46,425 bases of DNA from Candidatus Poseidoniaceae archaeon. GTDB lineage: Archaea > Thermoplasmatota > Poseidoniia > Poseidoniales > Poseidoniaceae. Position numbers and translations under genes: made by a program. The stretch spans positions 1-46,425 of the forward strand of contig CASIBX010000039.1 of NCBI GenBank assembly GCA_949373075.1. The letters are read 5' to 3'. Positions 1 through 24,019 of this stretch are shown in pieces (positions within the stretch are counted from its first letter, which is position 1; each line of letters starts with the position of its first letter). The notes beneath the pieces were generated by a model. The model was not told the origin of the DNA and made no database searches. It saw nothing but the letters and a program-made list of their open reading frames with translations.

Positions 1-407
1 CTCAGAATGGATCGCGCAGCCTTGCAATAGCTAAGCAAATGATACTGAAACTCGCTTCAAGTAACACAGCAGTAAAATGGCCACATCACGTGAGTTCAAT
101 TTTACAAGTAGGATCCACACGACTGCGTGAACCCAAGCCCTGAAAATTCCTTGCAAAAATGCCATTTCACGTGCAAAAGCCGTCGAGTCGGAAAAACGCA
201 ATGCCGATTGTTACTTTTACACTCCGCCAAAAGTTATGGAACGAACTGAGCCCTCGCCGCGCCGGATCGCGCAGATCCGCTCGATGATCCTGCGCGAATG
301 TTTTGCAGTTTTGGTGAATAAAATAAACGTCTGAGGAAGGATGAAATTCGTCATGTCAGTGTAATCTGAAATTGAAACTCGAATAAAATATTAGATCAAA
401 GACTCAC

Positions 408-587
408 TGCTTGTTCGTGCGGCCGATGGTGCGGTTCGTCTCCTGGATCGTGAACTGCCGCGCCTGCTCCATGTTCTTCTTGTTCGAGCCCGTCGAGTAC
501 GACCGCGGCGGCTCCATGTCCAAAGTACTCTTCGAATTACGAATAGTCTCTCTGTGTTTTTCGTACCCACGCTGCCACGCGCGCTGC
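408..587 (-). CDS. Single internal exon of a CFAP97/hemingway-like (KIAA1430 family) protein
   Basis: The 180-nt stretch begins after an AG acceptor (589-588) and ends before a consensus GTGAGT donor (407-402). It encodes about 60 residues, including RQRAWQRGYEKH, LDMEPPRSY and a Lys-Lys-x-Met-Glu then Asn-x-x-Ile pattern. In the CFAP97/KIAA1430 family the corresponding region has a basic helix, a 'PP-x-x-Y' element and a 'KK-(x)-E-E-R-(x)-I-(x)-N' helix; these proteins act in axoneme and cilium maintenance. Only this exon is seen; upstream and downstream exons were not found with confidence. The match is from recalled family features, not alignment. Confidence 0.55.
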
Positions 588-886
588 CTATTGGACACAA
601 ACATTGAAATTGGTGATGATGCAAATAATTTCGTGCAGACGAACCTCCTCGTGAAATCCGAATTTGTGCTTATGGAATGCGTCAGAGAAAGAGATTTTCA
701 TTGCGAAGAATGGTCATTACGATTCTGGGTAGTTTCACAAGTAACCCGACTGGTTAAAGCACTCAGTGCAGCCGGTCCCGGGAGTGCTCTTGACCGACCA
801 AAATCAGACCTCTTTCCACTAAGATTCCACTGCTTCCGTCGAGTGAGCTCCTGCCAGCCGCATAACATCATACTTCAACCCTAGTC

Positions 887-960
887 CTAGTGCGACGCGT
901 GCTCCGGCACCGGCATCCGGAACAGCGGCGGCGCCGGCACCGCGGGCCCCTTTTGGCTCA
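887..960 (-). CDS. Possible terminal exon of an unidentified eukaryotic gene
   Basis: An open stretch rich in Pro and Ala (ending PVPEHASH) finishes at a TAG stop complementary to 887-889. Its upstream boundary is uncertain: an AG lies near 960 and another about 15 nt further upstream. The GC-rich codon use contrasts with the AT-rich flanks, which is the main reason to call it coding. It could belong to the multi-exon gene upstream or to a separate gene. I do not recognise the protein. Confidence 0.3.
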
Positions 961-1072
961 TGTACTGCATTTTGCTTATAAAATTTTCTCTCTTCTTATC
1001 TTATGGTACAGTATACGTATCTCTTTCTCTATCTACTTCCCCCCGTCTATATCAGTCGAAACGTATCGATCA

Positions 1073-1152
1073 GGATCTGACGGATATAGCACAGACTGAT
1101 GGATAGCGATGCCTCTCTGGGTCCAGTTCCCGATAACGCTCACGTTCTTGTT
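1073..1152 (+). repeat. Dispersed direct repeat, copy 1 (eukaryotic segment)
   Basis: About 80 nt closely resemble 2810-2889: both contain ATAGCACAGAC followed by GATGGATAGCGATGCCTCTC, then TGGG(T/C)CCA, TTCCCGATA and ACGTTC. The copies differ by scattered substitutions and small indels. Such a repeat fits a dispersed element in a eukaryotic genome; no coding capacity or terminal repeats are visible. Confidence 0.75.
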
Positions 1153-1408
1153 CGCTGCGATGCATTCCACTCCCGCTCGACTGCATTGATCCCCATTCAT
1201 TCAGTCGACAACGCAGACGCTACGACGGCACGACAACACTGACGCTACAAACTACGGCTTGAGCTGAACAGTTTTAATTTAAGAGATAATGTCAATGGTC
1301 ACGGATCCATTTACGGGACACGTATAGCTGAGCAGTTTTGACTATACGCATACGGGAGGACAAAATCAACTACTACAAATACAAAATTGCAACTATTACA
1401 ATTACTAT

Positions 1409-2706
1409 TTAAGATTCGCCGTAGACGTAGACTATGTAATTGCACGGCGTTTCGAGCAGGTCCACGAAAGACGCAGGACCATCAGAGAATTGTGTGCCCC
1501 AGATCATATCCAATTCGTCTCAGAATCTAAGGCGTCTCAGAATCTCCACCTGAGCCAGGTCCGGACCATTACCACGTTCCCTAATGGTAAGGTCCGGGCC
1601 ATAATCGCGCTCAAATGGATCCAGGTCGGTATACTTACTCTTGCAGCACTGCCTTCAGGGCCGGGTTTCTCCTTTCTTGTGGTTGCATACGCAATTCGCG
1701 AGTCAGAAGTACAACGTATATACATCCGTCGCGTCTGAGCCAAGTCGCGTCTGAGCCAAGTCGTCCAGCTGGTGCTCGAACCATCTGACGAACTCCTCGA
1801 AGTCCTTCACGTTCTTCATCTTTCCCTTCGGGAAGACAGCTGTAAAAGCAACAAAATCCGAACCGAAACCAACTGAATGCTGGAGTCGAACTAACCTGCC
1901 ACCATCGGGGACTAAAAACTCCACCTGGTGCTGTTCGGCGTCGTACTCGTGGTCCGGCAGAGAGACTCACTCCCACTTGTAGTTGTAGAAGAGGTCCTTG
2001 CGCGCCTGCATAATTGCATTGAACAATGTCACGACGAGTAATGAAACGGTAGATTAAAATAGCAGTGCGTAAAAAAAAGTACAAACCAGACATAAACACG
2101 AACCACATAACGAAGGCTTACGATCTGCTCCTCGAACACGAGCTTGAGCTCCACCGTACTATCCTGCGGGCCCAGCTCAAAGACCGTGTAGAGCCGCTTA
2201 TCAGCGTCGTTGCGGATGTCACCGTCGGTCAGATGCTTCTCTACCGTGCCGTTGCCTTTGCTCTCGAGCAGCAAGTTGACAACATTGCCTGCAGGCACGG
2301 GCAGCGACACCAGGCAGCCCATCACCAACTCCTTCAGCTTCTTCGACACCTGGTAGTCCTTGTCCAGCACCAGCTCGCCGTTCACCTGCGAAACTTCGAG
2401 TTTAACAACCCCGGACTCGCGCCACTCGGCCACCGACTTGGGCTTCTCCAAATTTTTGTTCTCGGTCTTCTTGCCGCTGTTACCTTGAGTTTTGGTATGA
2501 AAAATTTATGTTTATACATGTAGCACTTTTCTGTGGCCATGTTGCATAGCGACAGTAAAGAAATAAATGAAAGTTCGTAAGTTACCAGAAAGTGACGCTC
2601 AGAATAAATTACCAGCTGGCGAACCAGGCTCCTCTGCAGCCGCCATCTCCTCCTCGATGTCAAAATCGATATCCTCGATCGCCGGCGCGTATCCACCGCT
2701 AGGCAT
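1409..2706 (-). CDS. Predicted multi-exon eukaryotic gene, product unknown
   Basis: A plausible gene model starts at ATG 2706. Exon 1 (2706-2613) encodes an acidic N-terminus with a Glu/Asp-rich stretch and stops at a GTAATT donor. Exon 2 (2483-2122, 120 codons in phase) is the longest coding block and ends at a GTAAGC donor. Exon 3 starts at 2005 (ARKDLFYNYKWE) but contains an in-frame TGA before the coding-like stretch PDHEYDAEQHQVEFLVPD. Exon 4 starts at 1839 (VFPKGKMKNVKDFEEF). A terminal block (about 1515-1409) ends in a TAA at 1411-1409. Exon phases of 1, 2 and 4 agree. I do not recognise the family; the in-frame stop could be a sequence error, a pseudogene mark or a wrong splice choice. 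Confidence 0.45.
1556..1602. repeat. Imperfect inverted repeat in the eukaryotic segment
   Basis: GGTCCGGACCATTACC on the left is nearly mirrored by GGTAAGGTCCGGGCC on the right, separated by about 15 nt. It could fold as a hairpin. It lies just upstream, on the minus strand, of the proposed terminal exon. A role is not known. Confidence 0.4.
1728..1765. repeat. Short tandem duplication (16-bp unit, two copies)
   Basis: The unit GTCGCGTCTGAGCCAA occurs twice in direct tandem, at the 3' side of the proposed exon 4 of the eukaryotic gene. On the minus strand it encodes a repeated Leu-Ala-Gln-Thr-Arg-like stretch only if read in two frames, so the second copy probably lies outside the exon. Confidence 0.55.
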
Positions 2707-2809
2707 TATGGCGTTTCTTTACGTTTGTTCTTCTTATCTGACTAAGTAGTAAATGCTAAAACTTATGCTATCCTTACGTCTATCATAGATATGCTGACCC
2801 GTTTTTCAG

Positions 2810-2889
2810 CGACCTGCCAATAATAGCACAGACGGATGGATAGCGATGCCTCTCTGGGCCCACTTCCCGATACTTACGTTCACATTCTA
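2810..2889 (+). repeat. Dispersed direct repeat, copy 2 (eukaryotic segment)
   Basis: Second copy of the roughly 80-nt repeat seen at 1073-1152, in the same orientation, with the same core GATGGATAGCGATGCCTCTC. It lies upstream of the proposed start of the multi-exon minus-strand gene, while copy 1 lies downstream of it. Confidence 0.75.
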
Positions 2890-3081
2890 TCACGACGAGG
2901 ACGAGGACGAGGACGACGCACCTTGTTTACTATAGATTGCATGGTACTTCAGATTCAAAAAATTCAGTCGACCAAATTCCTTCTACACAGTCTGAGTGAA
3001 GCATTTGCCTCTACTTCGCGATATCAATTCAGTATCTAACAATCCCTGTACAGTCTCGACGTTAGACTTAGATCCCACTAG

Positions 3082-3156
3082 TTACTTCCCGTCCTTCGCC
3101 GGGTTGTGCGTCTCGTCCGCGCCCTTCATGTAGAAGAAGCCGTCAACCGAGCCGGC
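3082..3156 (-). CDS. Possible terminal exon of a second eukaryotic gene
   Basis: Exactly 25 codons including the stop follow an AG acceptor (3158-3157) and end at TAA (3084-3082). The product ends VDGFFYMKGADETHNPAKDG-Lys. All-GC third positions set it apart from the AT-rich surroundings. The rest of the gene would lie toward the adapter junction, but no further exon is evident before 3350. I cannot name the family. Confidence 0.4.
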   Translation of the reverse strand, partial: AGSVDGFFYMKGADETHNPAKDGK

Positions 3157-3350
3157 CTAGTTAGCCACATTTTGGATCCAAGTTCGAGTTGCGTTAGATC
3201 CTCCTCGTAAGCACTTCGAAATGTGCCTTCAGATGTGCAAAACGTAGAACGAATCGTTGTATAAATCGCTAATTGAAACTTTGTACCAGAGCGGAGGTAA
3301 CGCCTAATTTTTAATCTCGCTGACTGCCGGTCTCTGCACATCAGACAAAC

Positions 3351-3402
3351 AGTACTCTGCGTTGATACCACTGCTTAAGCAGTGGTATCAACGCAGAGTA
3401 CT
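3351..3402. other. Back-to-back amplification adapters (artefactual palindrome)
   Basis: Positions 3377-3402 read as the 26-nt oligonucleotide that starts AAGCAGTGGTATCAACGC and ends GAGTACT; 3351-3376 is its exact reverse complement. From memory this is the ISPCR/SMART sequence, also used as the PCR adapter in PacBio ultra-low-input libraries. Two adapters tail to tail are what ligation of two adapter-ended amplicons would leave. The palindrome extends 4 bp further on both sides (AAAC...GTTT), perhaps by chance. Everything left of it differs in character from everything right of it. Confidence 0.95.
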
Positions 3403-3778
3403 GTTTTGAGCCATTAGATAGAGATCGACCCGCTTCAGACCCATCAACAGAGTCGCAAGCTAGTATGCCTGCAATATGTGTGCCATGTCTAAATTGCTGG
3501 TGTCCTTGATTATCCCAACCATCAACAGTATCGTTTAACAAGACAATTTTACGATGCGAAGGCCCGGGTATTCCAACTTCATCTGTTGAGTCTCTAAAAC
3601 ACGAGTGGTCCATGTCAATCCCGGTATCGGCTACCGCGATGATAACTCCACTTCCATCTAAAGCATATAATTCGTCATCTTGCGTATCAACTACCATTAC
3701 TTCCGAACCAGTAGAAGAGGTGTACTGCGGGGCCATTAGGGTGATTATAACAAGAGCAATCACGACCCGCATAACCAC
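3403..3778 (-). CDS. Subtilisin-like serine protease (S8), 3' end lost at the adapter junction
   Basis: About 125 residues survive. A hydrophobic N-terminus (VVIALVIITLMA) looks like a signal peptide for export. It is followed by the catalytic Asp motif VADTGIDMDHS and the catalytic His motif HGTHIAGIL, in the order and spacing of peptidase family S8. The Ser motif and the remainder are missing because the sequence runs into the adapter. The start is GTG 3778 or ATG 3772. The open frame continues through the adapter into eukaryotic sequence, but that part is not real protein. In an organism that degrades proteins in seawater this would be an extracellular or surface protease. Confidence 0.85.
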
Positions 3779-3832
3779 TGTGATAAACCCATCATGATTG
3801 AATCTTCAGGCTCATGGCTTCGCGCCAGCGCG

Positions 3833-3838
3833 TTTAAG
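3833..3838 (+). promoter_or_regulatory. TATA-like box for the eL20 operon
   Basis: TTTAAG inside GCGTTTAAGTT is centred 27 nt upstream of ATG 3863, the spacing expected if transcription starts at or just before that ATG. This supports the shorter eL20 start over an in-frame ATG at 3794. Confidence 0.5.
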
Positions 3839-3862
3839 TTACAATCACAGGTCGGCGGCTAC

Positions 3863-4135
3863 ATGCAAGCCTTCCGTGTATCCGGCACCGCTCCATTCGG
3901 CAGCCAACGACAGAAGTTCAATATTGACTTAGTCGCTGACTCAGCAGATGATGCAGAACACCGCTGTTATTCGATTATTGGTTCTCGACACAAAGCTAAC
4001 CGCCGCTCGATTACAATAGATTCAGTTTCTGAAATCGATCCTCGAACTTCTAGTGAACCTAGAATCCTTAACGCCTTCCGCGAACAGATAGAAGCTGCTG
4101 GTGGAAAAATAGCCCAAGAAGCTGAGGAAGAGTGA
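3863..4135 (+). CDS. rpl18a: 50S ribosomal protein eL20 (LX, L18a family)
   Basis: The product (90 residues) has MQAFRVSG near the start and SIIGSRHKANRRSI in the middle, matching the archaeal LX/L20A family, in which a short beta sheet is followed by the conserved 'IGSxHxxxRxxI' element. It binds 23S rRNA in the large subunit. I chose ATG 3863 because the family begins with this 'M-x-x-F-R-V-x-G' strand and because a TATA-like box lies 27 nt upstream; an in-frame ATG at 3794 would add 23 residues with no family counterpart. The C-terminus is acidic. It heads a co-directional run with prefoldin alpha and ftsY, an order also known from other archaea. Confidence 0.85.
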   Translation: MQAFRVSGTAPFGSQRQKFNIDLVADSADDAEHRCYSIIGSRHKANRRSITIDSVSEIDPRTSSEPRILNAFREQIEAAGGKIAQEAEEE

Positions 4136-4138
4136 ACT

Positions 4139-4152
4139 CCGACAATCGTCGG
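4139..4152 (+). promoter_or_regulatory. Small hairpin between eL20 and pfdA
   Basis: CCGAC and GTCGG form a perfect 5-bp stem around the tetraloop AATC just after the eL20 stop. No T-tract follows directly, so it is more likely a transcript-processing or attenuation element than a full terminator. Confidence 0.3.
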
Positions 4153-4190
4153 GTTCTTGATGGTGAGGCAACTCCCATTAGGTGAGGCCC

Positions 4191-4703
4191 ATGGTTGATT
4201 CAAGCGAACTTCAACGTATGGCGCGATTAGTCGATATGAATCGACAGCGCCTAGAAGAGATTCAAGTTCAGATCGAACGAATCGAAGCAGTGCAACTTGA
4301 GCATAACGACACAAAGCTAGCCCTCAATGCATTATCGAAGGGCAAAGGCGGGCACATCCCCCTTGGGGCCGGAGTTATGGTTCCTATTCCCAGTAACACA
4401 ACAACAATCGTAGATTTAGGTAGTGGGGTTTTTGGTGAAAGAACTCCAGAGAGTGCAGAAGAGTTAGTATCTAAGAGGTTTGAAGACCTGGTTGAGTTAA
4501 AGTCACAATTCGAAGCCGATGCAGCAACTCTTACTCAGAGGATAGAAGAATTAGCTTCAAACTTTGAAAGAGCCGCTAATAAAATTTCAAGCACCCAGAA
4601 AGAAATCGAAGAGCCAGAAATTAATTCTGAGCCAGAAACTAACCCAGCCCCCTCCAAGCGCCGCCGAAGAGGGATGGGCGGAAAACTAACTCTTGACGAT
4701 TAG
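4191..4703 (+). CDS. pfdA: Prefoldin subunit alpha
   Basis: Prefoldin alpha (170 residues) pairs with prefoldin beta in a hexameric holdase that passes unfolded proteins to the thermosome. The sequence shows the family plan: an N-terminal coiled-coil helix (about 1-45), a central beta hairpin region with the conserved VPIPSNTTTIVDLGSGVF type element (about 60-80), and a second coiled-coil helix (about 95-140). A Glu/Pro linker and a basic tail (KRRRRG) follow, longer than usual for the family. ATG 4191 is preferred over GTG 4182 because AGGTGAG lies just upstream. It is 9 nt upstream of ftsY and likely co-transcribed. Confidence 0.85.
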   Translation: MVDSSELQRMARLVDMNRQRLEEIQVQIERIEAVQLEHNDTKLALNALSKGKGGHIPLGAGVMVPIPSNTTTIVDLGSGVFGERTPESAEELVSKRFEDLVELKSQFEADAATLTQRIEELASNFERAANKISSTQKEIEEPEINSEPETNPAPSKRRRRGMGGKLTLDD

Positions 4704-4712
4704 GTGATTAAG

Positions 4713-6092
4713 ATGGGTCTTTTCGATAAATTCCGCAAAAAGGTGCAACATGCCGCTTCTGAGGCAGACACCGACTCTCTATCTGCCGAAGAAGGCACGG
4801 ACGAGGCCAAAGAGGCGCTTGACCAACACCAAGAACTCGAGACAAACACCCCCAGTGCTGAAGAGGAAGATTGGGAGGAAATAGATGAAAGTGAAGTCTT
4901 AGAATTACCTCCTGAAAATTCAGATGAATGGGATGAATGGGATGACGACGAAGAATATTCTCTTCCCACCAAACTAACTCGCAAAGAAAAGAAAGTTTTA
5001 GCAAAACACGCCAAGAGAGAAAGCAAACAACGCAAAGTTAACGCAAAAGAACTCAAAAAACGAGGCGGTAAAGAGGTCTCAAGACTGGCTGGTTCGAAAG
5101 TCGACTTACATATGATGAGAACGACTACTGGTAGACAATTGGTGGAAGTTAAATCTGCCCCCTCTGGCGGGATTGGTACCAAGGAAGAAGACGGAATAAA
5201 AATCGACCTTGGTGGCGGCGTAGTTGAATCGGGTGGCCGAGTAATCAAGAAAAGCGACGCCCTAACCGATTTGATGGAAGAATTAGAATGGATAATGCTC
5301 GAATCTGATATTTCATCCGACGCCGTATCTGCTGTAATGGGGGCTCTTAACAAAAACCTGGTTGGTCAAAGATTACGTAAGGGCGCAGATATATCCAAGG
5401 TGCTTGAAGCAAGCCTCAAAAGATCACTTCACAACATTTTACAAGCCGGATATTGGGACTTTTTCGAAAGCATTCAAAGTTTCATCGACAAAGGAGACAC
5501 CCCGGTTTCGATCATGTTTGTTGGAGTAAATGGAACTGGAAAAACCACAACAGTCGCTAAGATTGCTCATCTATTACAAAAACGCGGCCACTCAGTAATC
5601 GCCGCCGCAGGTGACACATTTAGAGCGGGAGCGATTGAGCAATTGGAAACACATTGCGAACGGTTGAATATCCGTTGCGTATCTTCACAAAGAGGCGGAG
5701 ATTCTGCTGCCATCGCTAGAGATGCTATCGATTCCGCAAAAGCAAAAGGTATCGATGTAGTTCTAGTGGACACCGCAGGAAGGATGCAAAACAAATCCAA
5801 TCTGATGGCCGAACTTGAAAAGGTCAGAAGGGTTGCTAATCCACACCTGACGCTATTTGTTGGAGACGCTTTAGCAGGAAATGATGCCGTCGACCAAGCT
5901 AAGATTTTCCAAGAGATGTTGAAGTTTGACGGGGCGGTTCTGACAAAACTAGACACGGATGCCAAAGGCGGCGCAGGGCTATCTATCGCACATGCAACAG
6001 GACGCCCAATCGTACTCTGTGGAACTGGTCAAGAGTACGATGATTTGATACAATTTGACCCTGATTGGTTATTGGAACAACTCTTCGAGTGA
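4713..6092 (+). CDS. ftsY: Signal recognition particle receptor FtsY
   Basis: FtsY docks ribosome-SRP complexes at the membrane and hydrolyses GTP together with Ffh/SRP54. The 459-residue product has a long, strongly acidic N-terminal A region (about 1-110, many Glu/Asp, then a Lys-rich stretch), an N domain, and an NG GTPase with P-loop GVNGTGKTTTVAKIA (about 270), DTFRAGAIEQLE, DTAGRMQ (G3), TKLDTDAKGGAG (G4 and closing loop) and a C-terminal helix near DDLIQFDP. All GTPase motifs are intact. Start ATG 4713 is chosen because it begins MGLFDKF, typical of FtsY, and GGTGAT lies 6-11 nt upstream. It follows pfdA by 9 nt and is followed at 9 nt by a DUF1844 gene. Confidence 0.93.
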   Translation: MGLFDKFRKKVQHAASEADTDSLSAEEGTDEAKEALDQHQELETNTPSAEEEDWEEIDESEVLELPPENSDEWDEWDDDEEYSLPTKLTRKEKKVLAKHAKRESKQRKVNAKELKKRGGKEVSRLAGSKVDLHMMRTTTGRQLVEVKSAPSGGIGTKEEDGIKIDLGGGVVESGGRVIKKSDALTDLMEELEWIMLESDISSDAVSAVMGALNKNLVGQRLRKGADISKVLEASLKRSLHNILQAGYWDFFESIQSFIDKGDTPVSIMFVGVNGTGKTTTVAKIAHLLQKRGHSVIAAAGDTFRAGAIEQLETHCERLNIRCVSSQRGGDSAAIARDAIDSAKAKGIDVVLVDTAGRMQNKSNLMAELEKVRRVANPHLTLFVGDALAGNDAVDQAKIFQEMLKFDGAVLTKLDTDAKGGAGLSIAHATGRPIVLCGTGQEYDDLIQFDPDWLLEQLFE

Positions 6093-6101
6093 GTGATTAA
6101 A

Positions 6102-6473
6102 ATGTCTGATGAGTTTTTCGATGATGAAACCAGCACCCACCTATTCCAATTGGTGCACATGTTACAACGCAGTGCAATGATGCATATGGGAATGCTACAA
6201 GATAGTGAAGGTAAAGTGCATTACAACTTAGGTGAAACCAAAGCAGCCATCGATACACTTTCTATGATGAAGGAGAAAATGCAAGGCAACCTTTCTCCTA
6301 AGGAAAGCACCATGCTTAACGGAATAGTTTCCGAGTTACAATTACAATTCACTAAGGCACCAGCGCGCCAAAGAGCCCTAGAGGACCAGGTTTCTGAATC
6401 AGAAGCGGTTCGAGAAACCTTCACAAATCCCCAAGATGGACCAGCGGAAATTATCACAGACGAGGAAGAATGA
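6102..6473 (+). CDS. DUF1844-like small protein
   Basis: The 123-residue product has an N-terminal helix with LFQLVHMLQRSAMMHMGML, then 'DTLSMMKEKMQGNLSPKE' and a helix ending in LQLQF. This matches the layout of DUF1844, in which a 'L-x-x-L-x-x-Q-A-L-x-x-L-G' helix is followed by 'D-x-L-x-x-L-x-x-K-T-K-G-N-L-T-x-x-E'. The biochemical role of the family is unknown. A GTGATTAA stretch precedes ATG 6102 in the same way as in ftsY. Its place 9 nt after ftsY suggests co-expression with protein targeting, but that is inference. The C-terminus is acidic and probably disordered. Confidence 0.65.
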   Translation: MSDEFFDDETSTHLFQLVHMLQRSAMMHMGMLQDSEGKVHYNLGETKAAIDTLSMMKEKMQGNLSPKESTMLNGIVSELQLQFTKAPARQRALEDQVSESEAVRETFTNPQDGPAEIITDEEE

Positions 6474-6503
6474 CTTCTAAATCTGATTTGAAGCGGTTAT
6501 TTC

Positions 6504-7178
6504 ATGAGTATGAAGCAACTCACAGGACTGTTAGCCATGGCGAGAGTAACCGATGTTGAAGACGAAGAGGCACCAACAGTGCTTATTGTCGATAACAACC
6601 AAATGTCATTACATAGGCTAACTGCAATATTCCGACAAAGAGAATTCAACGTTGTTACATGTGAGGACGGGGATAAAGCGGTTGACGAATATATTCGACT
6701 CGACCCCGAACTTGTAGTTATGTCACTAGACATACCATCTATGGATGGGCATTTAGCCGCATTAGAGATGAGGGAACACGGCAAAGAGTGCAGAATTTTA
6801 TTTTCAGCCCCAAAACGTCAAGCTCAACTTGCCAAGGATGCAACTCATTCAGCGGGGGCGATTGGGTGGGTGGAAAAGCCAATCACAGCAGGAGCAATAG
6901 AATCTATCTGGAGTTTAGTTCTGGGTCCAATTCCAGAGGCGCCAGGACTTGAGGACTTGGATTCAATACATCCGGTTGAAGAAATGATTGAGATTGAAGA
7001 AGACATTGCACCTCTTCCTATTCTTCCATTACCTGTACTGGAAATCAATCCAACCCTAGGTCAAAAAATGCCAAAGAAGCGCTCCGGTAAAGCAAAAAGG
7101 TTGCTCATCATATTGGTGATGTTCACAACTTTGGGGGCGGCTGGCTGGTATGCATGGTCGAGTGGACTGATTGGATAG
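6504..7178 (+). CDS. Degenerate response-regulator receiver domain with C-terminal membrane anchor
   Basis: Residues about 25-140 follow the CheY-like receiver fold: VLIVDNNQMS (first acidic patch), PELVVMSLDIPSMDG (beta3), RILFSAP (beta4) and WVEKPIT (conserved Lys). The phosphoacceptor Asp is replaced by Ser74, and the second acidic residue at the start is Asn31; Asp76 is two positions downstream. Phosphorylation in the usual way is therefore doubtful. A linker rich in Glu, Ile and Pro (about 150-195) leads to a basic segment (KKRSGKAKR) and one hydrophobic helix at the C-terminus, so the domain would sit on the cytosolic face. Its 3' end overlaps a convergent gene. No histidine kinase is in the window. 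Confidence 0.75.
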   Translation: MSMKQLTGLLAMARVTDVEDEEAPTVLIVDNNQMSLHRLTAIFRQREFNVVTCEDGDKAVDEYIRLDPELVVMSLDIPSMDGHLAALEMREHGKECRILFSAPKRQAQLAKDATHSAGAIGWVEKPITAGAIESIWSLVLGPIPEAPGLEDLDSIHPVEEMIEIEEDIAPLPILPLPVLEINPTLGQKMPKKRSGKAKRLLIILVMFTTLGAAGWYAWSSGLIG

Positions 7179-7473
7179 GCTGAGACATAGCCTTCACTGG
7201 AATCATAGCAACTCTACCATCTGGTAACCTTTGTTGAATGTAGCCAGTTGTGCCCGGTGGCAAAGTCTGGTTAGTAGATTTTTCAATACTACTACCTGCC
7301 GGCGCCTGCACAATTTCTGTTATTTTGTAAGATGAAGAGGATAATAGTTCCATATCACCAGTTGCAAGCCTTGCGTCTAACTTCCTGTTGTTGTCCCAGA
7401 TGCTCCAAATTAGCCAAGAAACCCCAATTGAAATAGGAATTACAACGAGCCACCCAACAATTGCAGAACTCAT
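7123..7473 (-). CDS. Small single-pass membrane protein, unknown function
   Basis: The 116-residue product starts with one long hydrophobic helix (about 4-26, IVGWLVVIPISIGVSWLIW) followed by a polar domain with PPGTTGYIQQRLPDGRVAMIP, which looks like a small beta-rich unit. No family is recognised. Its ATG overlaps the pyrF stop as TCAT on the plus strand (ATGA overlap), so the two are translationally coupled. The 3' end overlaps the convergent receiver gene by 56 nt, which leaves no room for a separate terminator and suggests the last residues are poorly conserved. Confidence 0.6.
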   Translation of the reverse strand: MSSAIVGWLVVIPISIGVSWLIWSIWDNNRKLDARLATGDMELLSSSSYKITEIVQAPAGSSIEKSTNQTLPPGTTGYIQQRLPDGRVAMIPVKAMSQPIQSVHSTMHTSQPPPKL

Positions 7474-8282
7474 AATTCTCTCTCAAGTAAAGCATTCCAC
7501 GAAGCATCCGCATATTCTTTAGCCGACCTAGTGGGGTTTTCTGATTTATGAATTCCACTACCTACGATGATACAATCTGAGCCAGCGAGAACAGCTTCTC
7601 TAGGATCACCATACCTCTGCCCCATCTCCCCGTCACCTACGGCTAAATTCACGCCCGGGGTCCAGATCATTTTTTCATTTCCAACTTTAGAACGTAATTC
7701 CGCCAACTCATTAGGCCTTGAACCATTACCAATAAACCCGAATACTCCTGGGTGCTTACATCCATTGGCAACAACTTCATCGGTGTAATTGGGGTTAAGC
7801 AGATTTCCCCGGCTGGACATTTGTGCTAGGAGTAAAACACCACCGCGTCGATTCACATCACTCCATCCAGATTGCAAACCATCTACAATGTCTGGGCCAC
7901 TTATCAGGTGAGCAGTGACCAAATCACTCCAACTTCGAATATCATAAATCCCGGCCATTTGATTCCGACTAATCTTCCCAATATCTGCAAATTTTCTATC
8001 TTCAAAAATCAGTAAGTCGGCGTCTTTTGCAGCAGAGCAGAATCTTGACCAACCCTCTTGAGTCCAATCATCAACTAGGTCGACGTGTGTTTTCAAAGCG
8101 GCTATGTGTGGGCCCACTGCTTCAATTAAATCGAATAGTCCGGCCATTGTATTCCTATCAGCAGCTAGACAGACCAGGCTTTGCTTTCTACAAGCAACTT
8201 CCATGTATTGGCGGGCGATTTCAGATGTTGAATTTGACCAACGTTCCCCCCACACATCGCTCGCCATCATATTGAGGCACAC
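7470..8282 (-). CDS. pyrF: Orotidine 5'-phosphate decarboxylase
   Basis: This enzyme makes UMP from OMP, the last step of de novo pyrimidine synthesis. The barrel shows LKTHVDLVDDW (substrate Lys and Asp), the catalytic 'D-x-K-x-x-D' site in LIFEDRKFADIG, and the phosphate-binding end near GSDCIIVGSGI. The FEDRKFADIG form and about 265 residues resemble the longer eukaryotic/bacterial class II enzymes more than the short archaeal ones (about 210-220). Possible starts are ATG 8282, 8270 and 8267; none has a clear Shine-Dalgarno, so the N-terminus is open. It lies 13 nt after the SDR gene and overlaps the next gene by 4 nt, consistent with one transcript. Confidence 0.88.
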   Translation of the reverse strand: MCLNMMASDVWGERWSNSTSEIARQYMEVACRKQSLVCLAADRNTMAGLFDLIEAVGPHIAALKTHVDLVDDWTQEGWSRFCSAAKDADLLIFEDRKFADIGKISRNQMAGIYDIRSWSDLVTAHLISGPDIVDGLQSGWSDVNRRGGVLLLAQMSSRGNLLNPNYTDEVVANGCKHPGVFGFIGNGSRPNELAELRSKVGNEKMIWTPGVNLAVGDGEMGQRYGDPREAVLAGSDCIIVGSGIHKSENPTRSAKEYADASWNALLEREL

Positions 8283-8295
8283 ATGGGGTTGCGTG

Positions 8296-9261
8296 TCAAT
8301 CTTGCGCTTGTAGGGATTTAATCGAGTCTACAAGGGTGTCAGTAATCTCATAATTTGGTAGAGAGAGGGCTGAGATAGAATCTCCAACATCGTATCCAAT
8401 ATGCTTTCCTAAAGTTCCTTTCAACCTACTGATGGACAGTTTTGGATGAAATAGCGCCATACCATAAGCCAAATAGCGCGGCAATATTCTAGTTGCGAAT
8501 TTACCCGGTAAAGCGGCACTCAATGCCTGGCCAATTTCCTTCAACCACAACCCGTCTTTATGGATGATATATCTAGACCGGTCAACGCCCATTTCCAGAG
8601 CATTAACATGCGCACACGCAACATCTCGGACATCGACGAAATTAACCTGAATGTCTAACACAAAAGGAGGCCCTTTCACGAAGTGTTCGAGGAACGCCAT
8701 CGATCCTTGAGTATGCCTCGGATGAACGATGGGGCCGAATACTATCGATGGGTGGATTGTTACCAATCGAATATCTCTATCTGTTGCCCATTCTCTCATT
8801 TTTCTTTCAGCCTCTGCTTTGGCAAACCCGTATGGGTTAGATGTTACCGAAGCATCGTTACACCAATCTTCATTATTGAAAATATGTCCGTTTTCGTATT
8901 TTGTAGAGCGTATAGCTGCTACTGAAGAAGTGTGAATAATCCGTTTAACATCTCCCATTACAGAACATAAATTTTCAACACCGGTTACTGAAGGCTTCAC
9001 CAAATCCTCTTCTATGTTTTTTACTCCAACGTAAAGAGCAGCAGCGCAATGAATCACATCATCGCACCCATTAACAGCCTCTCGTAGAGAATCAATATCA
9101 AATAAATCCGCTTTTACAACCTCTAAAAACTTGGATTCTGGGAACATTTCCGCTAATGAAACATCACGCATCATCGCTCTAACTGGAATATCTCTTTTCA
9201 ATAATTCAAGCACCACATGTGCTCCAATAAATCCGCTAGCCCCTGTTACCAGTACTGGCAT
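8296..9261 (-). CDS. NAD(P)-dependent extended SDR (epimerase/3-beta-HSD-like reductase)
   Basis: The 321-residue product begins with the Rossmann motif TGASGFIGAHVV, has the Asp for cofactor ribose near VKADLFDID, HCAA before the fourth strand, TSS, and the catalytic pair in NPYGFAKAE (Tyr-x-x-x-Lys). This is the extended short-chain dehydrogenase plan. Within it, the length and the C-terminal region resemble dihydroflavonol reductase/3-beta-hydroxysteroid dehydrogenase relatives more than nucleotide-sugar epimerases. Substrate cannot be told; sugar, polyketide or isoprenoid alcohols are possible. It is the first gene of the minus-strand group with pyrF, divergent from the secreted hydrolase. 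Confidence 0.8.
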   Translation of the reverse strand: MPVLVTGASGFIGAHVVLELLKRDIPVRAMMRDVSLAEMFPESKFLEVVKADLFDIDSLREAVNGCDDVIHCAAALYVGVKNIEEDLVKPSVTGVENLCSVMGDVKRIIHTSSVAAIRSTKYENGHIFNNEDWCNDASVTSNPYGFAKAEAERKMREWATDRDIRLVTIHPSIVFGPIVHPRHTQGSMAFLEHFVKGPPFVLDIQVNFVDVRDVACAHVNALEMGVDRSRYIIHKDGLWLKEIGQALSAALPGKFATRILPRYLAYGMALFHPKLSISRLKGTLGKHIGYDVGDSISALSLPNYEITDTLVDSIKSLQAQD

Positions 9262-9299
9262 AAATTATCCTAAACACAGCAGGGTCATGTTCTTGCCGC

Positions 9300-11112
9300 A
9301 TGGGCGCTACGCACCCAATGATGCGCACGGCGGTTTTGCTCAGTCTACTTATCCTCCTCGTCCCCCTATCGGGATGTTTTGGTAGTTCTGACGAAGACAA
9401 AACCCCGGAACCAGCGCTCTACTATCCTGACATTAACGATAGGCAATTTTTGGATTGGGAATGGAATGGATCTTACTCTATGGTCTTAGAGCAAGGACCG
9501 CATACCGTCTTGGAAGTTCAAGAAGCGACCTTTGAAGTTGACACATCAGATATTTGGGAAACGGGGCCACCTACCTCTAATGTACATCTTTCATATTGGC
9601 TTCCATCTAATACTGAAGCCGGCGAAAAGGTTCCTGTAATTGCAGTAGTCAGCCCGTACTTCTCTTTTGGCCAACCTGGTGATGAGTCTGGCGCTACGAA
9701 TGTAGTAGGTGGCGGGCGAGGCGAGTTCATTTACGACAATTATATTCCACACGGGTATGCATTTGCCCAAGTTTCGGTTTTTGGAACCGAGGAGTCGAGT
9801 GGCTGCTTTGACTATCGTGGTGCTGGTGAAGGGCTTGGAATCCACCATGCCGTCGAGTGGCTAGGGCAACAAAACTGGTCGAATGGAAACGTAGGGCTCT
9901 ACGGTAAATCCTACGAAGGGGCCACACAATGGGAAGCAGCAGCTCTCGGTAGCGAGCATCTCAAGACAATAGTTCCAATCTCTGGAACAACCGCCCTACA
10001 CCCTCTACTCTACAAGAACGGCAGTGCTGAAGCAAGAAGTCAAGTTATGCATATGAATTACTTTGGAAGCACTGTCGATTATAATGGCGATGATTTAGAC
10101 AACATCTGTCCAGATATAGTGGAAGGAATATTTGCAGGTCCTGCAACCTATGGGCTAGGCGAATTAGATCCGTATATGCAAAACTACTACGACGAGAGGA
10201 GCCATATCGACAAAGCGTTTCAAAATTGGAACGGGTCAATATACTGGGTCCAGGGAATGCAAGATTGGAACGTTGACCCCCACCAGGTTTTCGGCGGCCC
10301 CTCTGGGACAAATTGGTATCTTGATTACTCTGCAGCAGGGTATGACGTTAGGGGGATGCTAGGACAATGGGAGCACAACTATCCAGATCAATGGTCGAAA
10401 CATAACGCCCAAGATTCCGGATATGGCGGAGAAGCAATTCACAACATGACCCGGTGGGATTGGGGCCAAGACTTGTTTGAATGGTTTGAATACTATCTCA
10501 AGGGAATAGGCCCAAAGCCCGACAACCACGCGCAAATCCAGAGGAATGATGGCGAATGGCGAATTGAAGATTTGTGGCCCCCACAGGATGCGACTTGGGA
10601 ATCGATTGACCTTTCAAATTGCGACCAACAAGGAAGCAGCGTGGGGCGGAGCCTCTGTAGTAGGAGGCGGTCAACAAACCGTGACATTCATCTGTGAGGG
10701 ATTCACTCAAGACATGCATATTGCTGGCCTCCCAACTCTACACCTCGACGTATCCGCATCAATGGATGGGGGACAAATATTTGCAGAATTACAGGATGCT
10801 GAAACCGGTATGAGAATCGGGCATGCTACAATGGACATACGTTATCACGCTGGCGGATATGACCCTCAGACGGTATTCCCTGGCCAAAGTTTAGTGATGC
10901 TTATGGAATTCCAAGGGATAGACGCAATATTACCTGCTGGGCATGGGATAAAACTCGTATTAACTGAAACAGGAGAGGACTATTTGGCCCCAGCCTGCGG
11001 TAATTCCTGCCCAGTCTCAGTAGGGGGTGGGACCTTTTCCTTCCCTCAAATAGATCGTAATGGAGATACCGTTTTCATCACCCCGCAGAGTTCTGAAGCT
11101 GCAAATAATTGA
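9300..11112 (+). CDS. Secreted CocE/X-Pro dipeptidyl-peptidase-like hydrolase, lipoprotein, apparent frameshift
   Basis: The gene reads in two frames. The first (9300-10697) has a lipoprotein signal (LLILLVPLSGC, lipobox Cys), then an alpha/beta hydrolase with the nucleophile in GLYGKSYEGA, the acid near GMQDWNVDPHQ and the His in GQWEHNYPD. The second (to 11112) carries the C-terminal jelly-roll domain of the CocE/S15 group (LHLDVSASMDGG, AGHGIKLVL). Removing one G from GGGG at 10643-10646 joins them smoothly as SSVGGASVVGGG. Together about 600 residues, the usual family size. A sequencing error in a homopolymer is the simplest explanation; otherwise it is a young pseudogene. ATG 9318 is an alternative start just before the signal peptide. 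Likely role: surface hydrolysis of peptides or esters. Confidence 0.82.
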
Positions 11113-11127
11113 AACGGCCTCGATTGA

Positions 11128-11150
11128 ACAAATGCCCAAAACCACCCATT
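11128..11150 (+). terminator. Possible weak hairpin after the hydrolase gene
   Basis: ACCAC and GTGGT can pair around an ATTTTA-containing loop shortly after the stop at 11112. The following bases are AT-rich but lack a clear T-run. The rest of 11113-11309 is AT-rich promoter-like sequence. Confidence 0.25.
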
Positions 11151-11270
11151 TTAGTGGTGTATTTGAACAAAAATAAACACACCAACATCCAATATATATG
11201 TGTAAATGAATAATTTTTTTTAAAAAAGATGAGGATTTGCACGACTATTTGGCAGTAAAATTATTCGATT

Positions 11271-11280
11271 GTATAATATA
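11271..11280 (+). promoter_or_regulatory. TATA-like box for glutamine synthetase
   Basis: GTATAATATA is centred about 34 nt upstream of ATG 11310, so a start site near 11302 would leave a very short leader. It sits in an AT-rich intergenic stretch that also contains an unusual TTTTTTTTAAAAAA run at 11214-11227. Confidence 0.45.
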
Positions 11281-11309
11281 CCGTCTAGGCAGGGAGTCGG
11301 GTGATAACC

Positions 11310-12320
11310 ATGTACGATAAAGCGAAACTCGAATACATCTGGCTAGATGGATATGAGCCAACTCAAAATATGCGAAGTAAAACACTCGTAAAGAATGACT
11401 TTGAAGGCACCCTTGAAGAATGCCCGATATGGATGTTCGATGGTTCTTCCACTAAACAAGCCGTAGGTGGCGACTCCGACTGTCTTCTCAAGCCAGTTGC
11501 AATATTCCCTGACCCTCAGCGAATCAACGGTTTCCTAGTAATGTGTGAAGTCATGAATGCAGACGGAACTCCTCACCAAAGTAATGCCCGAGCAACAATT
11601 GATGATGACGATAACGATTTTTGGTTTGGATATGAGCAAGAGTATTTCATCATGGATGCAGAAACTCAGCTTCCAGTTGGCTTCCCAGTCGGAGGATATC
11701 CTGGACCACAAGGGCTGTACTACTGTTCAGTCGGTGGAAAGAATACACACGGTCGTGCATTTGTAGAAGAGCACGCCGATCTTTGTTTAGAAGCGGGAAT
11801 TAACTTCGAAGGAATCAATCAAGAAGTTGCTTGCGGCCAATGGGAGTTCCAAGTTTTCGCTAAGGGCGCAAAGCGTGCAGGTGACGAACTCTGGGTTTCA
11901 AGATACATACTAGACCGTCTAACTGAAAACTACGGTTACTACATTGAATACCATCCAAAACCAGTCAAGGGCGATTGGAATGGGTCGGGTATGCACGCCA
12001 ATTTCTCGAATGGCGCTATGCGTGATGTAGGTGGCAAGGAACTTTTCGATAGTATCTGTGAAGCGTTCGGTAGGAATATCAAGAAACACATGGATGTCTA
12101 TGGCGCATATAATGACGAGCGCCTGACTGGTCTCCATGAAACCCAATCAATCGACCAATTCTCTTACGGGGTTTCGGATCGTGGGGCCTCTATTAGAATT
12201 CCAGCATCAGTTCCAGCAGATGGCTGGATTGGTAGGCTTGAGGACCGCAGACCGGCATCTAATGGCGACCCTTACAAGATAGGCGCAGTAATCATTTCAA
12301 CAACAAAGTCTGCGAATTAA
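11310..12320 (+). CDS. glnA: Glutamine synthetase, type II (eukaryotic-like GSII)
   Basis: The enzyme makes glutamine from glutamate, ammonia and ATP in the cytosol. At 336 residues it is far shorter than the GSI enzymes (about 440-470) usual in archaea. Motifs are those of GSII: MFDGSSTKQA, FGYEQEYF (metal Glu), NFEGINQEVACGQWEFQV (metal Glu), NGSGMHANFS (glutamate-binding His) and RGASIRIP (ATP-side Arg). No adenylylation Tyr loop of GSI is present. ATG 11310 is preferred to GTG 11301. It stands alone between a convergent SemiSWEET gene and the hydrolase gene. GSII in an archaeon implies an old transfer from bacteria or eukaryotes; this is inference. Confidence 0.93.
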   Translation: MYDKAKLEYIWLDGYEPTQNMRSKTLVKNDFEGTLEECPIWMFDGSSTKQAVGGDSDCLLKPVAIFPDPQRINGFLVMCEVMNADGTPHQSNARATIDDDDNDFWFGYEQEYFIMDAETQLPVGFPVGGYPGPQGLYYCSVGGKNTHGRAFVEEHADLCLEAGINFEGINQEVACGQWEFQVFAKGAKRAGDELWVSRYILDRLTENYGYYIEYHPKPVKGDWNGSGMHANFSNGAMRDVGGKELFDSICEAFGRNIKKHMDVYGAYNDERLTGLHETQSIDQFSYGVSDRGASIRIPASVPADGWIGRLEDRRPASNGDPYKIGAVIISTTKSAN

Positions 12321-12577
12321 GGTTCACTTTTTCGAATCCTAATCACACCAATAATTACTGATAGAATCATAAGTAATGCAGCAACGTTGCTGAAGATTAT
12401 CGCAGGTGATGGCAGCATAATTCCATAGATCATCCAAAGTGTGAGTGCGAGTGCAACCACTGCGAATGTTGGTATTGAAACCCCATCGTGCTTTTTATCG
12501 ACCCACACGGTTTTGACTTGAGGGATCCATGCAACGATACCTAAGACGCCAGCTGCAAATCCAATTGATTCTAGCAT
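12317..12577 (-). CDS. SemiSWEET-type (PQ-loop) small transporter
   Basis: The 86-residue product has three hydrophobic helices and the PQ-loop signature IVAWIPQVKTVW followed by DGVSIPTF, as in bacterial SemiSWEET sugar transporters, which work as dimers of a three-helix bundle. Helix 2 starts near FAVVALALTLWMIYGI and helix 3 near IIFSNVAALLMILSVI. The ATG at 12577 shares one base with the stop of the upstream NERD gene (TAATG), so translation is probably coupled. Its stop overlaps the end of the convergent glutamine synthetase by 4 nt. The transported compound is unknown; sugars are the usual substrates of the family. Confidence 0.85.
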   Translation of the reverse strand: MLESIGFAAGVLGIVAWIPQVKTVWVDKKHDGVSIPTFAVVALALTLWMIYGIMLPSPAIIFSNVAALLMILSVIIGVIRIRKSEP

Positions 12578-13398
12578 TAGCCCCACTCCGCTCTAGGGTT
12601 ACTAAATTCAATTCTCGAGATATTGGCAAAGGGGATAATTCTCGAGCCGTCTTCTCCCACTACTGAGACATAAGGGCCTGATTGGTCGGAAACCACCTGC
12701 CCCGTAGAAAGTTTACTTTTAGGACCTATAATTAATCCAAATATCCCGGTATTGGCAACAGTACAATCTTTCTTTTCAAATGGATATTCTAGAATGTCTC
12801 CGTGTACAGTTTTACCACCATTTAGGTGTATTGTGTCCCAAGTTCCAAGGCCAGTTAAGGTTTCATGCAACACTTTTGATGGTGCTTCTTTTGTCATTTT
12901 TTCAACCATATCAATGAATCCCAATTCATCATATGCCTGTGCAGGAACATCTTCTGGTAACGGGTCCCATTCTAGGTTCTTGTTTGAGAAAACCAAGACA
13001 GTGCGGCTTGGAGGTGCAGATTTACCAACTCTACCCTCATGAAGTGCACAAAGGAGTTCCCCTTTACGTGCAGTCCACGCAACGATATCTTTGTGGAGTA
13101 GAGTTCCGCCATTTTTTCTTTTTTGGAAAAAGCGTCCTTCTTCGGTAATCGTGAATGAACCAGACCAATGCTTTTGTTCAACGAATAAGATTTCGTCCTT
13201 CGTAGCAATCACCATGTCGATTTCACGCCTTCCCCCTTCTTCGGGGTCCGGCAGTCTCAGTCCTTCCAATACCAAAGCGTCACCAGCAACCGCCCTCGTT
13301 AATTTCATCAAACGAAACTCTGCAAGACGCCCAGAGACAACATGCCCTTCAGGGTCAAAACGTTGCCTTCTGGAGATGAACTCACTAATTCTTCCCAC
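12577..13398 (-). CDS. NERD-domain (nuclease-related) protein
   Basis: Residues about 15-130 match the NERD domain, a restriction-endonuclease-like fold: GDALVLEGLRLP, REIDMVIATKDEILFVEQKHWSG (Asp and Glu-x-Lys catalytic-type residues, with the typical 'K-x-W-x-G' end). The C-terminal half contains a region (IHLNGGKTVHGDILEYPF) and SVVGEDGSRIIPFANI that look like a small beta-rich domain; I do not recognise it. NERD proteins are suspected DNA-processing enzymes but few have been tested. The start is GTG 13398 with GAGGTGA 6 nt upstream. It follows the HAD gene by 4 nt. Confidence 0.78.
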   Translation of the reverse strand: MGRISEFISRRQRFDPEGHVVSGRLAEFRLMKLTRAVAGDALVLEGLRLPDPEEGGRREIDMVIATKDEILFVEQKHWSGSFTITEEGRFFQKRKNGGTLLHKDIVAWTARKGELLCALHEGRVGKSAPPSRTVLVFSNKNLEWDPLPEDVPAQAYDELGFIDMVEKMTKEAPSKVLHETLTGLGTWDTIHLNGGKTVHGDILEYPFEKKDCTVANTGIFGLIIGPKSKLSTGQVVSDQSGPYVSVVGEDGSRIIPFANISRIEFSNPRAEWG

Positions 13399-13402
13399 AA
13401 AT

Positions 13403-14179
13403 TCACCTCAGTAAATCATTTACAGAATCAACAACAACACTAACCGGTTTCCCTGACTCCCTTAAATCTGAACGCGTGGCCTCTCCCGATAGCACTAGTA
13501 CCGAAACACAGTCTGCTTGAATTGCCATTTCCATATCGGTGTACAATCTATCACCAACCATGGCGCATTCTGAAGGCACGAGTCCCAATTCCTCTATTTT
13601 GTGCATAATCATTCCAGGATTTGGCTTCCCTGTAATATGAACGGGGTCTTGGCCTGTCGTAACTTTGAGCATAGCAAGATATGCGCCTACGTCAGGCAAT
13701 CCTCCATCAGGAGAAGGGCATACCATATCTGGGTGGCTAGCGACCAAAGGAACACCCTTGTGCATGTGAATCGAAGCAGTAGAAATTTTGTGGTAATTGA
13801 TTTCAGTATCATAACCTAGGACAACATACTGAGGATCATCATCGCGGGTGTTTATTCCAACATTTTCCATCATTTCGCACATGCCTTCAGTTCCAATTAC
13901 CCAAGTTCTGGTGACGCCTTCTTTGGCTAACCAAGACAATAAGTCATGAGTTGAAAGTAACACGTCTTCTGGAGAACACGGAATTCCCATTTCTTCTAAT
14001 TTAGCAACATATTGATCTACAGATTTAGAAGAGTTATTGGAAAGAAAATAGCGCTGCACCCCTTGTTCTTCACAGCGTTCTAAAAATTCAAGCGCACCTT
14101 GAATTAAATTACCTCCAAGGTAAATCGTCCCATCTAAATCTAGGAAAACCGCTTTGACGCCAGTTAATTTTGAATCCAT
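13403..14179 (-). CDS. HAD-superfamily phosphatase, NagD/phosphoglycolate-phosphatase-like (subclass IIA)
   Basis: The 258-residue product has all HAD motifs: FLDLDGTIYLGG (motif I, nucleophile and acid Asp), SNNSSKS (motif II), the Lys in HITGKPNPGM (motif III) and MVGDRLYTDMEMA (motif IV). The long insert between motifs II and III, with VLGYDTEINY, is the C2a cap of NagD, p-nitrophenyl phosphatase and eukaryotic phosphoglycolate phosphatase. Substrate is open: phosphoglycolate, a nucleotide or a sugar phosphate. ATG 14179 has GGTGAT upstream, preferred to the longer frame starting at 14221. It lies 11 nt after the geranylgeranyl reductase gene. Confidence 0.87.
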   Translation of the reverse strand: MDSKLTGVKAVFLDLDGTIYLGGNLIQGALEFLERCEEQGVQRYFLSNNSSKSVDQYVAKLEEMGIPCSPEDVLLSTHDLLSWLAKEGVTRTWVIGTEGMCEMMENVGINTRDDDPQYVVLGYDTEINYHKISTASIHMHKGVPLVASHPDMVCPSPDGGLPDVGAYLAMLKVTTGQDPVHITGKPNPGMIMHKIEELGLVPSECAMVGDRLYTDMEMAIQADCVSVLVLSGEATRSDLRESGKPVSVVVDSVNDLLR

Positions 14180-14190
14180 TATATCACCGA

Positions 14191-15513
14191 TTAGAATAGG
14201 AGAGTTTTGACTAAGAACCATTTGGAATGAAGATTCTCTTGAGCTTCTTTACTCGCAATCATTTCAGTCATCATCTCTTGAATAACAGGCTTCCTGCCTG
14301 CCTTTCCGACAAACCAGTTTAGAAGCCACTTCCTTCTACTCATTTTTTGCATTTTGAATGAGTTTGTTAACTCAGGTCCAAGGGCAGCCCAGAGCTCTTC
14401 TTGGTAAGCCGCACCACCAATATTTTCGATAACATGTCTGGCGGCCATTTCACCACTCACCAGCGCATTTCCAACACCCTCGCCTGAAAATGGGTCTACT
14501 AAACTAGCAGAATCTCCAATCAATAGTGCACCCGGCGCATACGCCTTTCTTGGTTGATTTTTCTCGCCTTTACGGGGACTGCCAAACGGTAATTGCCATC
14601 CTTTCCCAGTGCCTTTGACCATCTCGGCATCAGCAAATCTTTCTTTGAAGAGGGGGTGATTTGCGATAACATCGGCTTGTAGTGGTCGAAGTTTCTTCTT
14701 TTGCTTATCCATCAATCCTAGAACCATTCCAATTCCAACGTTGACCTTTCCTCCTCCTAAAGGGAATAACCAAAAATAACCAGGGATAATGCTGTCAACA
14801 AAATGAATCTCAATATTTCCCGCATCACCTTCGCATCCTTTGACACCGGTCCAATATTCGCGATATCCTCCGCAATAATGCATACGGTCAACCAATTCTT
14901 CTTTTTCTAATTCTCGAATAATTTTCTTAGCGACAGGGCAGAGGTATCCTCCAGCCCCAATGGTCCAAGGTGCTGAATAATCTCGTAGCTCGCCTTTCTT
15001 ACCGCCGATGCCGACTTCAACTCCAGTAATCACCCCATCCGTGTCGTAAACATTGGTTACCATGCCACCTTGGATTACAGAGCCGCCGTTTTCTAGGACC
15101 AGTTCAGTAGCCCGCTCAAACAGCAGCCAGTCGAACTGTTGGCGAGGTAATGAGTATCCAGCCTGCAGCCTCTCAACGTCTTCTTCGGGGAGAGGAACGG
15201 TCACTTCGTTCCCGTTTGGGGATGAAAATACGATTCCCGTGACTTTAAAGTGAGGTGAAGATTCTAATTTTGCTTTGACGCCCAAGGCATTCACATGGCT
15301 CAATGATTTACCACCAACAGCATCTCCGCAAACCTTGTCACGCGGCCACACCCCTCGCTCAACTAACAGCACCTTCTTTCCATCCATCGCTAGATACGAT
15401 GCGGCGGCGGCGCCTCCTGGCCCGCCACCTACTACGATGCAATCAAATTCTGATTTTGAAGGCGGAATTTCTCCGGTATCGATGGGCATATCCCAAAACT
15501 GCCCACTCGCCAT
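14191..15513 (-). CDS. Geranylgeranyl reductase family flavoprotein
   Basis: Archaeal members saturate the isoprenoid chains of membrane lipids, using FAD at the membrane. The 440-residue product has the FAD dinucleotide motif VVGGGPGGAAAASYLA near residue 28, CGDAVGG at the position of the redox Cys, the 'Y-x-W-x-F-P' substrate motif as GYFWLFPLGGGKVNVGIG, and the second FAD motif IGDSASLVDPFSGEGVGNA. A basic C-terminal segment (MSRRKWLLNWFVGKAGRK) may bind the membrane. ATG 15513 gives a product starting MASGQFWD. It heads the run GGR-HAD-NERD-SemiSWEET, spaced by 11, 4 and -1 nt. A different isoprenoid, such as a quinone side chain, is an alternative substrate. Confidence 0.87.
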   Translation of the reverse strand: MASGQFWDMPIDTGEIPPSKSEFDCIVVGGGPGGAAAASYLAMDGKKVLLVERGVWPRDKVCGDAVGGKSLSHVNALGVKAKLESSPHFKVTGIVFSSPNGNEVTVPLPEEDVERLQAGYSLPRQQFDWLLFERATELVLENGGSVIQGGMVTNVYDTDGVITGVEVGIGGKKGELRDYSAPWTIGAGGYLCPVAKKIIRELEKEELVDRMHYCGGYREYWTGVKGCEGDAGNIEIHFVDSIIPGYFWLFPLGGGKVNVGIGMVLGLMDKQKKKLRPLQADVIANHPLFKERFADAEMVKGTGKGWQLPFGSPRKGEKNQPRKAYAPGALLIGDSASLVDPFSGEGVGNALVSGEMAARHVIENIGGAAYQEELWAALGPELTNSFKMQKMSRRKWLLNWFVGKAGRKPVIQEMMTEMIASKEAQENLHSKWFLVKTLLF

Positions 15514-15584
15514 AATTACCACACAACGCATAAGGCACAAGAGGGTTAGTGCGAAAGGAGCATAATTTCATCGCATTCTTTCCG

Positions 15585-15597
15585 ATAAAAAGTAAAT
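15585..15597 (+). promoter_or_regulatory. TATA-like box for the EamA transporter
   Basis: GATAAAAAGTAAA lies about 28 nt upstream of ATG 15619, the distance expected for an almost leaderless transcript. This supports 15619 over the in-frame ATG at 15643. Confidence 0.45.
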
Positions 15598-15618
15598 GAA
15601 ATCTACCGCCATTATCAA

Positions 15619-17003: not shown

Positions 17004-17046
17004 ATCTAAAACGAATAGCCCCCACATTATGAAAGATTCCGTCATA

Positions 17047-17087
17047 TTGTCGGAAATTATGGCAAAAGGGATGGTATTTTCCGACAA
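17047..17087. promoter_or_regulatory. Candidate Lrp operator: 10-bp inverted repeat between divergent genes
   Basis: TTGTCGGAAA (17047-17056) and its exact reverse complement TTTCCGACAA (17078-17087) are 31 bp apart centre to centre, about three helical turns, so both would face the same side of DNA. It lies between the Lrp-type regulator and cystathionine gamma-synthase, just upstream of the likely regulator promoter. Confidence 0.6.
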
Positions 17088-17151
17088 CCGTTTGTTTTTT
17101 GAGGCGAACTGTTGATGTGCACTAGGCCCGAACATTAGTTTGGAGAAGCCT

Positions 17152-20001: not shown

Positions 20002-20025
20002 TTCACCGGAGACGGCGTCCCCTGT

Positions 20026-20874: not shown

Positions 20875-20899
20875 GCTCAAACCACTTGCTCCTCTGGGC

Positions 20900-21940: not shown

Positions 21941-21983
21941 AATCTCCGCTTATTTCATCAATGAGCGCCTTCTGCCCATTCTC

Positions 21984-22817: not shown

Positions 22818-22840
22818 AATTCACTTTATTTGAATGATAC

Positions 22841-23997: not shown

Positions 23998-24019
23998 ACC
24001 ACTCAGTAACACATTTAGG

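Follow-up and report, generated by a model that had tools for sequence, protein, structure and literature searches.

Is the 52-nt palindrome at positions 3351-3402 of the window (the whole stretch of DNA analysed, 46,425 nt) a natural part of an archaeal chromosome, or does it mark an artificial join between DNA of two origins? The window is the entire contig C39 of an assembly of 1.62 Mb in 43 contigs, 60% complete. The original prediction read the palindrome as two amplification adapters placed head to head, with animal-like DNA on the left and archaeal DNA on the right.

Two adapter copies placed back to back

An 18-mer is found exactly at 3359-3376 (minus strand) and 3377-3394 (plus strand), with no third copy at up to 3 mismatches in the window; shuffled versions of the window gave a mean of 0.00 copies (100 shuffles). 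The two copies lie within a perfect inverted repeat with a spacer of 0 and arms of 30 nt each (3347-3376 and 3377-3406), in which 26 of the 30 nt per arm are the oligo AAGCAGTGGTATCAACGCAGAGTACT, arranged 5' end to 5' end and complete with its 3' T in both arms. The predicted pair of exact head-to-head copies is thus confirmed, the perfect repeat being slightly longer than had been claimed.

3351..3376, minus strand: 26-nt PCR adapter, copy 1, an exact match to the 26-mer printed in a passage of PMC12613986
3377..3402, plus strand: 26-nt PCR adapter, copy 2, also an exact match, its 5' end abutting that of copy 1

The passage in question, from a genome announcement, gives exactly these 26 letters as adapter contamination of PacBio HiFi reads, removed with lima. 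Duplicates were marked there by pbmarkdup, and the passage does not use the word "ultra-low" (PMC12613986). According to passages of two other papers, which do not print the letters, lima and pbmarkdup serve to clear ultra-low libraries of their PCR adapters and duplicates (PMC11809032, PMC12424358). Across the 1.62-Mb assembly, the first 23 nt of the adapter occur at a single site, the 3351-3402 pair (up to 2 mismatches).

The extension of the repeat by 4 bp on each side (AAAC/GTTT) is most likely a coincidence, of about 1 in 256, and we take these bases as insert, because the right-hand GTTT is also present in a relative (L005) and because the arms are 25-27 nt long at the nine other junctions where both were measured. 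A genuine longer palindrome with 30-nt arms was rejected for the same reasons.

Homology to relatives begins at the adapter edge

3403..46425, no strand assigned: archaeal part of the contig, with Pfam matches to L18Ae, an FtsY-like SRP54 GTPase, Topo VI-B and the aconitase family
3403..3778, minus strand: archaeal subtilase (S8), cut at the adapter after 125 residues, matching positions 1-69 of 288 of Pfam PF00082

From 3403 to its end at 46425 the contig is, as we take it from the gene content, archaeal. A search with the L18Ae protein found a match in 35 of 40 relatives. Of these 35, 19 yielded loci, every one from the window's own genus. Each of the 19 aligns to stretches within 3403-5654; the alignments start between 3403 and 3456 and run rightward, and none extends to the left. 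In the two closest relatives (82-83% identical) the alignment starts at 3406 and 3403, the closest one thereby starting at the first base after the adapter. The left 3376 bases gave no alignment better than E 2.2 to the same 19 relatives.

The subtilase gene also ends at the adapter. In the relatives, stop-to-stop subtilase frames span 685-816 aa (6/6 of those for which a longer region was taken), and a search of the assembly for the continuation returned only matches at 32% and 38% identity. The assembly is incomplete, and the missing remainder therefore proves little by itself. Together with alignments that start only from 3403 onward, the cut subtilase bears out the warning that co-linearity across 3376 is not to be trusted.

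Two other places on the archaeal side may be recorded. Within 9300-11112, an S15 peptidase frame (9300-10697, plus strand) overlaps a frame with the PepX C-terminal domain (10546-11112), which looks like a frameshift, whether from sequencing or real. Further along, 24155-25564 (plus strand) encodes a class II aldolase/adducin-like protein whose long low-complexity N-terminal part consists of Gly-Pro-Pro-Ser repeats followed by Glu-Pro repeats, and the gene falls where GC peaks at 57% (24-25 kb).

A eukaryote-like stub left of the adapter

1..3350, no strand assigned: eukaryote-like genomic DNA stub, outside the archaeal genome, on the basis of missing alignment to relatives, CFAP97-like exons and 4-mers
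220..577, minus strand: CFAP97/Hemingway-like coding piece of two exons (Pfam PF13879) interrupted by a putative intron, 290-407 (GTGAGT...GCAG)

The stub differs from the rest of the contig in 4-mer composition, with a distance of 0.293 against a maximum of 0.265 among 40 overlapping archaeal windows. Its GC content does not differ from that of the archaeal part (contrast 0.014), and no second copy of it was found in the assembly.

The coding piece says more about its source. The unspliced minus-strand frame ending at 408 scores 21.2 bits (longer form) or 23.0 bits (shorter form) against the Hmw_CFAP97 profile, PF13879. Removal of the predicted intron at 290-407 raises the score to 31.3 bits, above the cut-off of 25.6, and lets the match cover profile positions 1-59 instead of 1-47, while ten alternative AG acceptors give 20.1-22.4 bits; the acceptor itself had been picked by eye before this control. 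CFAP97 is presumably a ciliary, eukaryotic family. We call the stub eukaryote-like because of this pair of CFAP97-like exons with a spliceosomal-type intron, and a retained intron indicates genomic DNA rather than cDNA. The splice-site prediction thus supports an origin of the stub in the genomic DNA of a eukaryote. Of the prediction that animal-like DNA meets archaeal DNA here, the foreign, eukaryote-like character of the left side and the break at 3403 stand, and an animal is one possible source of the stub, a protist being another.

A search for CFAP97 in the 27 genomes of the genus returned no match; the same search detected 0/14 controls and missed the stub's own unspliced piece, and its result therefore proves nothing. 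A second gene-like part, at about 1600-2711 (minus strand), has no Pfam match and reaches only E 0.75 and 0.91 against PDB sequences. The stub also holds a 50-nt direct repeat (1086-1135 and 2823-2872, 94% identical), which may belong to a eukaryotic repeat element.

The same junction in Fram Strait MAGs

Among the 84,980 species genomes of genome_contigs, the 25-mer of the adapter is present in 11 stretches, a count from which the window's own record was possibly excluded, and 11/11 are titled as FRAM (Fram Strait) MAGs. These stretches come from 9 genomes, mostly bacteria of several groups plus one Poseidoniales archaeon, and searches of the nine whole genomes gave one or two junctions each. 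The oligo is the same throughout and the organisms flanking it are different. Within the phylum, 389 sampled genomes yielded a single carrier of the exact 25-mer, the window's own genome; of 27 genomes in the genus, the 26 besides this one lack the 23-mer at up to 1 mismatch.

In arrangement, too, the FRAM contigs (L029-L039) resemble the window. Back-to-back pairs are found in 10/11, the exception being a single copy in L038, or in 11/12 when the window is included, with spacers of 0 except for +1 in L031 and -1 in L039. None of the 12 junctions, on contigs 23.6 to 863 kb long, is more than 11.4 kb away from a contig end (the farthest at 11,323 bases, three of them at 10.4-11.3 kb, and that of the window at 3376 bases). 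Such proximity to the ends would arise by chance with a probability of about 1e-5 when relative distances are summed, or 1e-7 when the maximum is used, the latter a post-hoc measure. At 6 of the 9 testable junctions the GC contrast is above the 95% level of the controls, and in the window, L034 and L039 it is not; flanks were too short for the test in L031, L036 and L037. At about 3574 of L038, itself a Poseidoniales FRAM contig, GC steps from 0.33 to 0.54 over 1500 bases at the single adapter, and this end is likely another foreign stub.

Passages of three Fram Strait papers describe PacBio ultra-low libraries, with metaFlye assembly in two of them (PMC8254474, PMC10504371, PMC10710508). HiFi reads averaged 8.6-9.6 kb in one of these studies, and the N50 was 6.8 kb in another (PMC8254474, PMC10504371). 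One of the three studies had Illumina libraries made as well (PMC8254474). From the pattern of the junction we infer that the window's MAG belongs to the FRAM set.

Outside the cellular genomes, the adapter occurs in 116 IMG/VR viral stretches, at the very end in 113/116, as would untrimmed adapters at read ends; the contigs trace to eight IMG metagenome numbers (list read by eye). The base after the 25-mer is T in 116/118 of these occurrences, and in 20/22 of those from the 11 FRAM loci and the window together. One IMG/VR contig (L066) carries tandem head-to-tail copies in its last 80 or so bases, unlike the back-to-back form.

Proposed origin of the join

We conclude that 3351-3402 is almost certainly an adapter-bridged library artefact and not biology, a conclusion supported by the exact oligo, the breakpoint at 3403, the cut gene, the recurrence in FRAM MAGs and the FRAM library method. 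These five also uphold the earlier judgement that the join is artificial and a natural origin not credible. As to the particular step, ligation of amplicons after PCR is the probable one.

In ultra-low-input adapter chemistry, amplicons start with AAGCAGTGGTATCAACGCAGAGTACT at both 5' ends. Genomic fragments would receive the 26-nt adapter ending in T, as for PacBio ultra-low-input HiFi libraries. They would then pass through long-range PCR, a step of the ultra-low protocol that is described in a passage of PMC8254474. During SMRTbell construction, a eukaryotic and an archaeal amplicon may then have been ligated end to end, giving a product in the order insert, reversed adapter, adapter, insert, with the 52-nt palindrome at its centre. 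If the internal adapter was left untrimmed and unsplit in the HiFi read, the assembler could have retained the chimeric read as a left overhang of the archaeal contig, the stub thus probably stemming from a single read. Spacers that vary by one base fit end joining.

Several observations count against this explanation. GC is flat at the window's junction (contrast 0.014), and one of the 12 junctions holds a single adapter copy. A one-read overhang is uncertain for the three junctions at 10.4-11.3 kb, because these distances exceed the mean and N50 read lengths given in the FRAM studies. Additionally, a passage of PMC11809032 puts chimeric reads from ultra-low-input PCR at 0.81% or less, no more than in unamplified libraries, a low rate at which deep data could nevertheless contain some.

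The same 52-nt junction would also be obtained if the adapter-bearing ends of fragments were ligated together before PCR and the chimera amplified afterwards, and the spacers of 0, +1 and -1 suit any end joining. However, an internal hairpin of 52 nt that has primer sites at its centre would be expected to amplify poorly by comparison with the separate halves, by which reasoning joining before PCR is improbable. Doubtful to a still greater degree is an assembler error in which unrelated reads were merged through their common adapter ends with no chimeric molecule involved. Contigs that end in the adapter are indeed known elsewhere (113/116 viral stretches), but both copies in the window are complete, where merging through a shared 26-nt end would give one copy, and 26 nt is far under the overlap thresholds that assemblers usually apply. 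Both possibilities are less likely than ligation of amplicons after PCR. Real biology, whether eukaryotic and archaeal DNA met by horizontal transfer or at a natural palindrome, has as its sole support the presence of both DNAs on one contig and is vanishingly improbable, given an oligo that is exact and synthetic, a homology break at the adapter's edge, the same junction between different flanks in FRAM MAGs of other groups, and the absence of the oligo from the 26 other genus genomes at up to 1 mismatch.

Consequences for the use of such contigs

The importance of an adapter-bridged artefact lies in data hygiene, and it has none as biology. Bases 1-3402 should be cut from the contig, and the join cannot be used for biological claims: the short subtilase does not reflect loss of a gene, nor does the CFAP97-like one show that an archaeon carries a eukaryotic gene. 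The 25-mer search also flags 11 more junctions in 9 public FRAM MAGs. Very probably, adapter-bridged foreign stubs near contig ends form a systematic class among those ultra-low-input HiFi MAGs used as species representatives. If so, such stubs bring in foreign genes, here eukaryotic, that can be mistaken for horizontal transfer, and the two-copy 52-mer provides a simple screen for further cases. Among the papers listed in a literature search, no title dealt with adapter-bridged artefacts in MAGs.

Comparison with known oligonucleotides

Two families of oligonucleotides bear comparison with the arms of the palindrome. The SMART/Smart-seq template-switch and ISPCR oligos of cDNA work share, as we take it, their first 23-25 nt with the window's oligo. 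The 26-mer occurs in 196 papers and, among the matches listed, these are mostly transcriptome-like as judged by title or the start of the abstract. A SMART cDNA oligo would be expected to be followed by GGG or an oligo-dT run, whereas in the window the oligo is followed by GTTTTGAG, with no GGG, poly(A) or oligo-dT. Furthermore, the stub retains a supported intron, and the DNA on the opposite side of the join is archaeal and genomic. These observations speak against a SMART cDNA artefact.

The other candidate, the PCR adapter of PacBio ultra-low-input (SMRTbell gDNA amplification) libraries, is what we take the 26-mer to be. Attribution to the ultra-low-input kit fits the FRAM library papers and PMC12424358, and the oligo is most likely this genomic adapter rather than a cDNA oligo. 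In ordinary use the adapter is expected to be trimmed, whereas the window holds two copies back to back inside a contig; letter for letter, over all 26 positions, the adapter and the arms of the window are the same.
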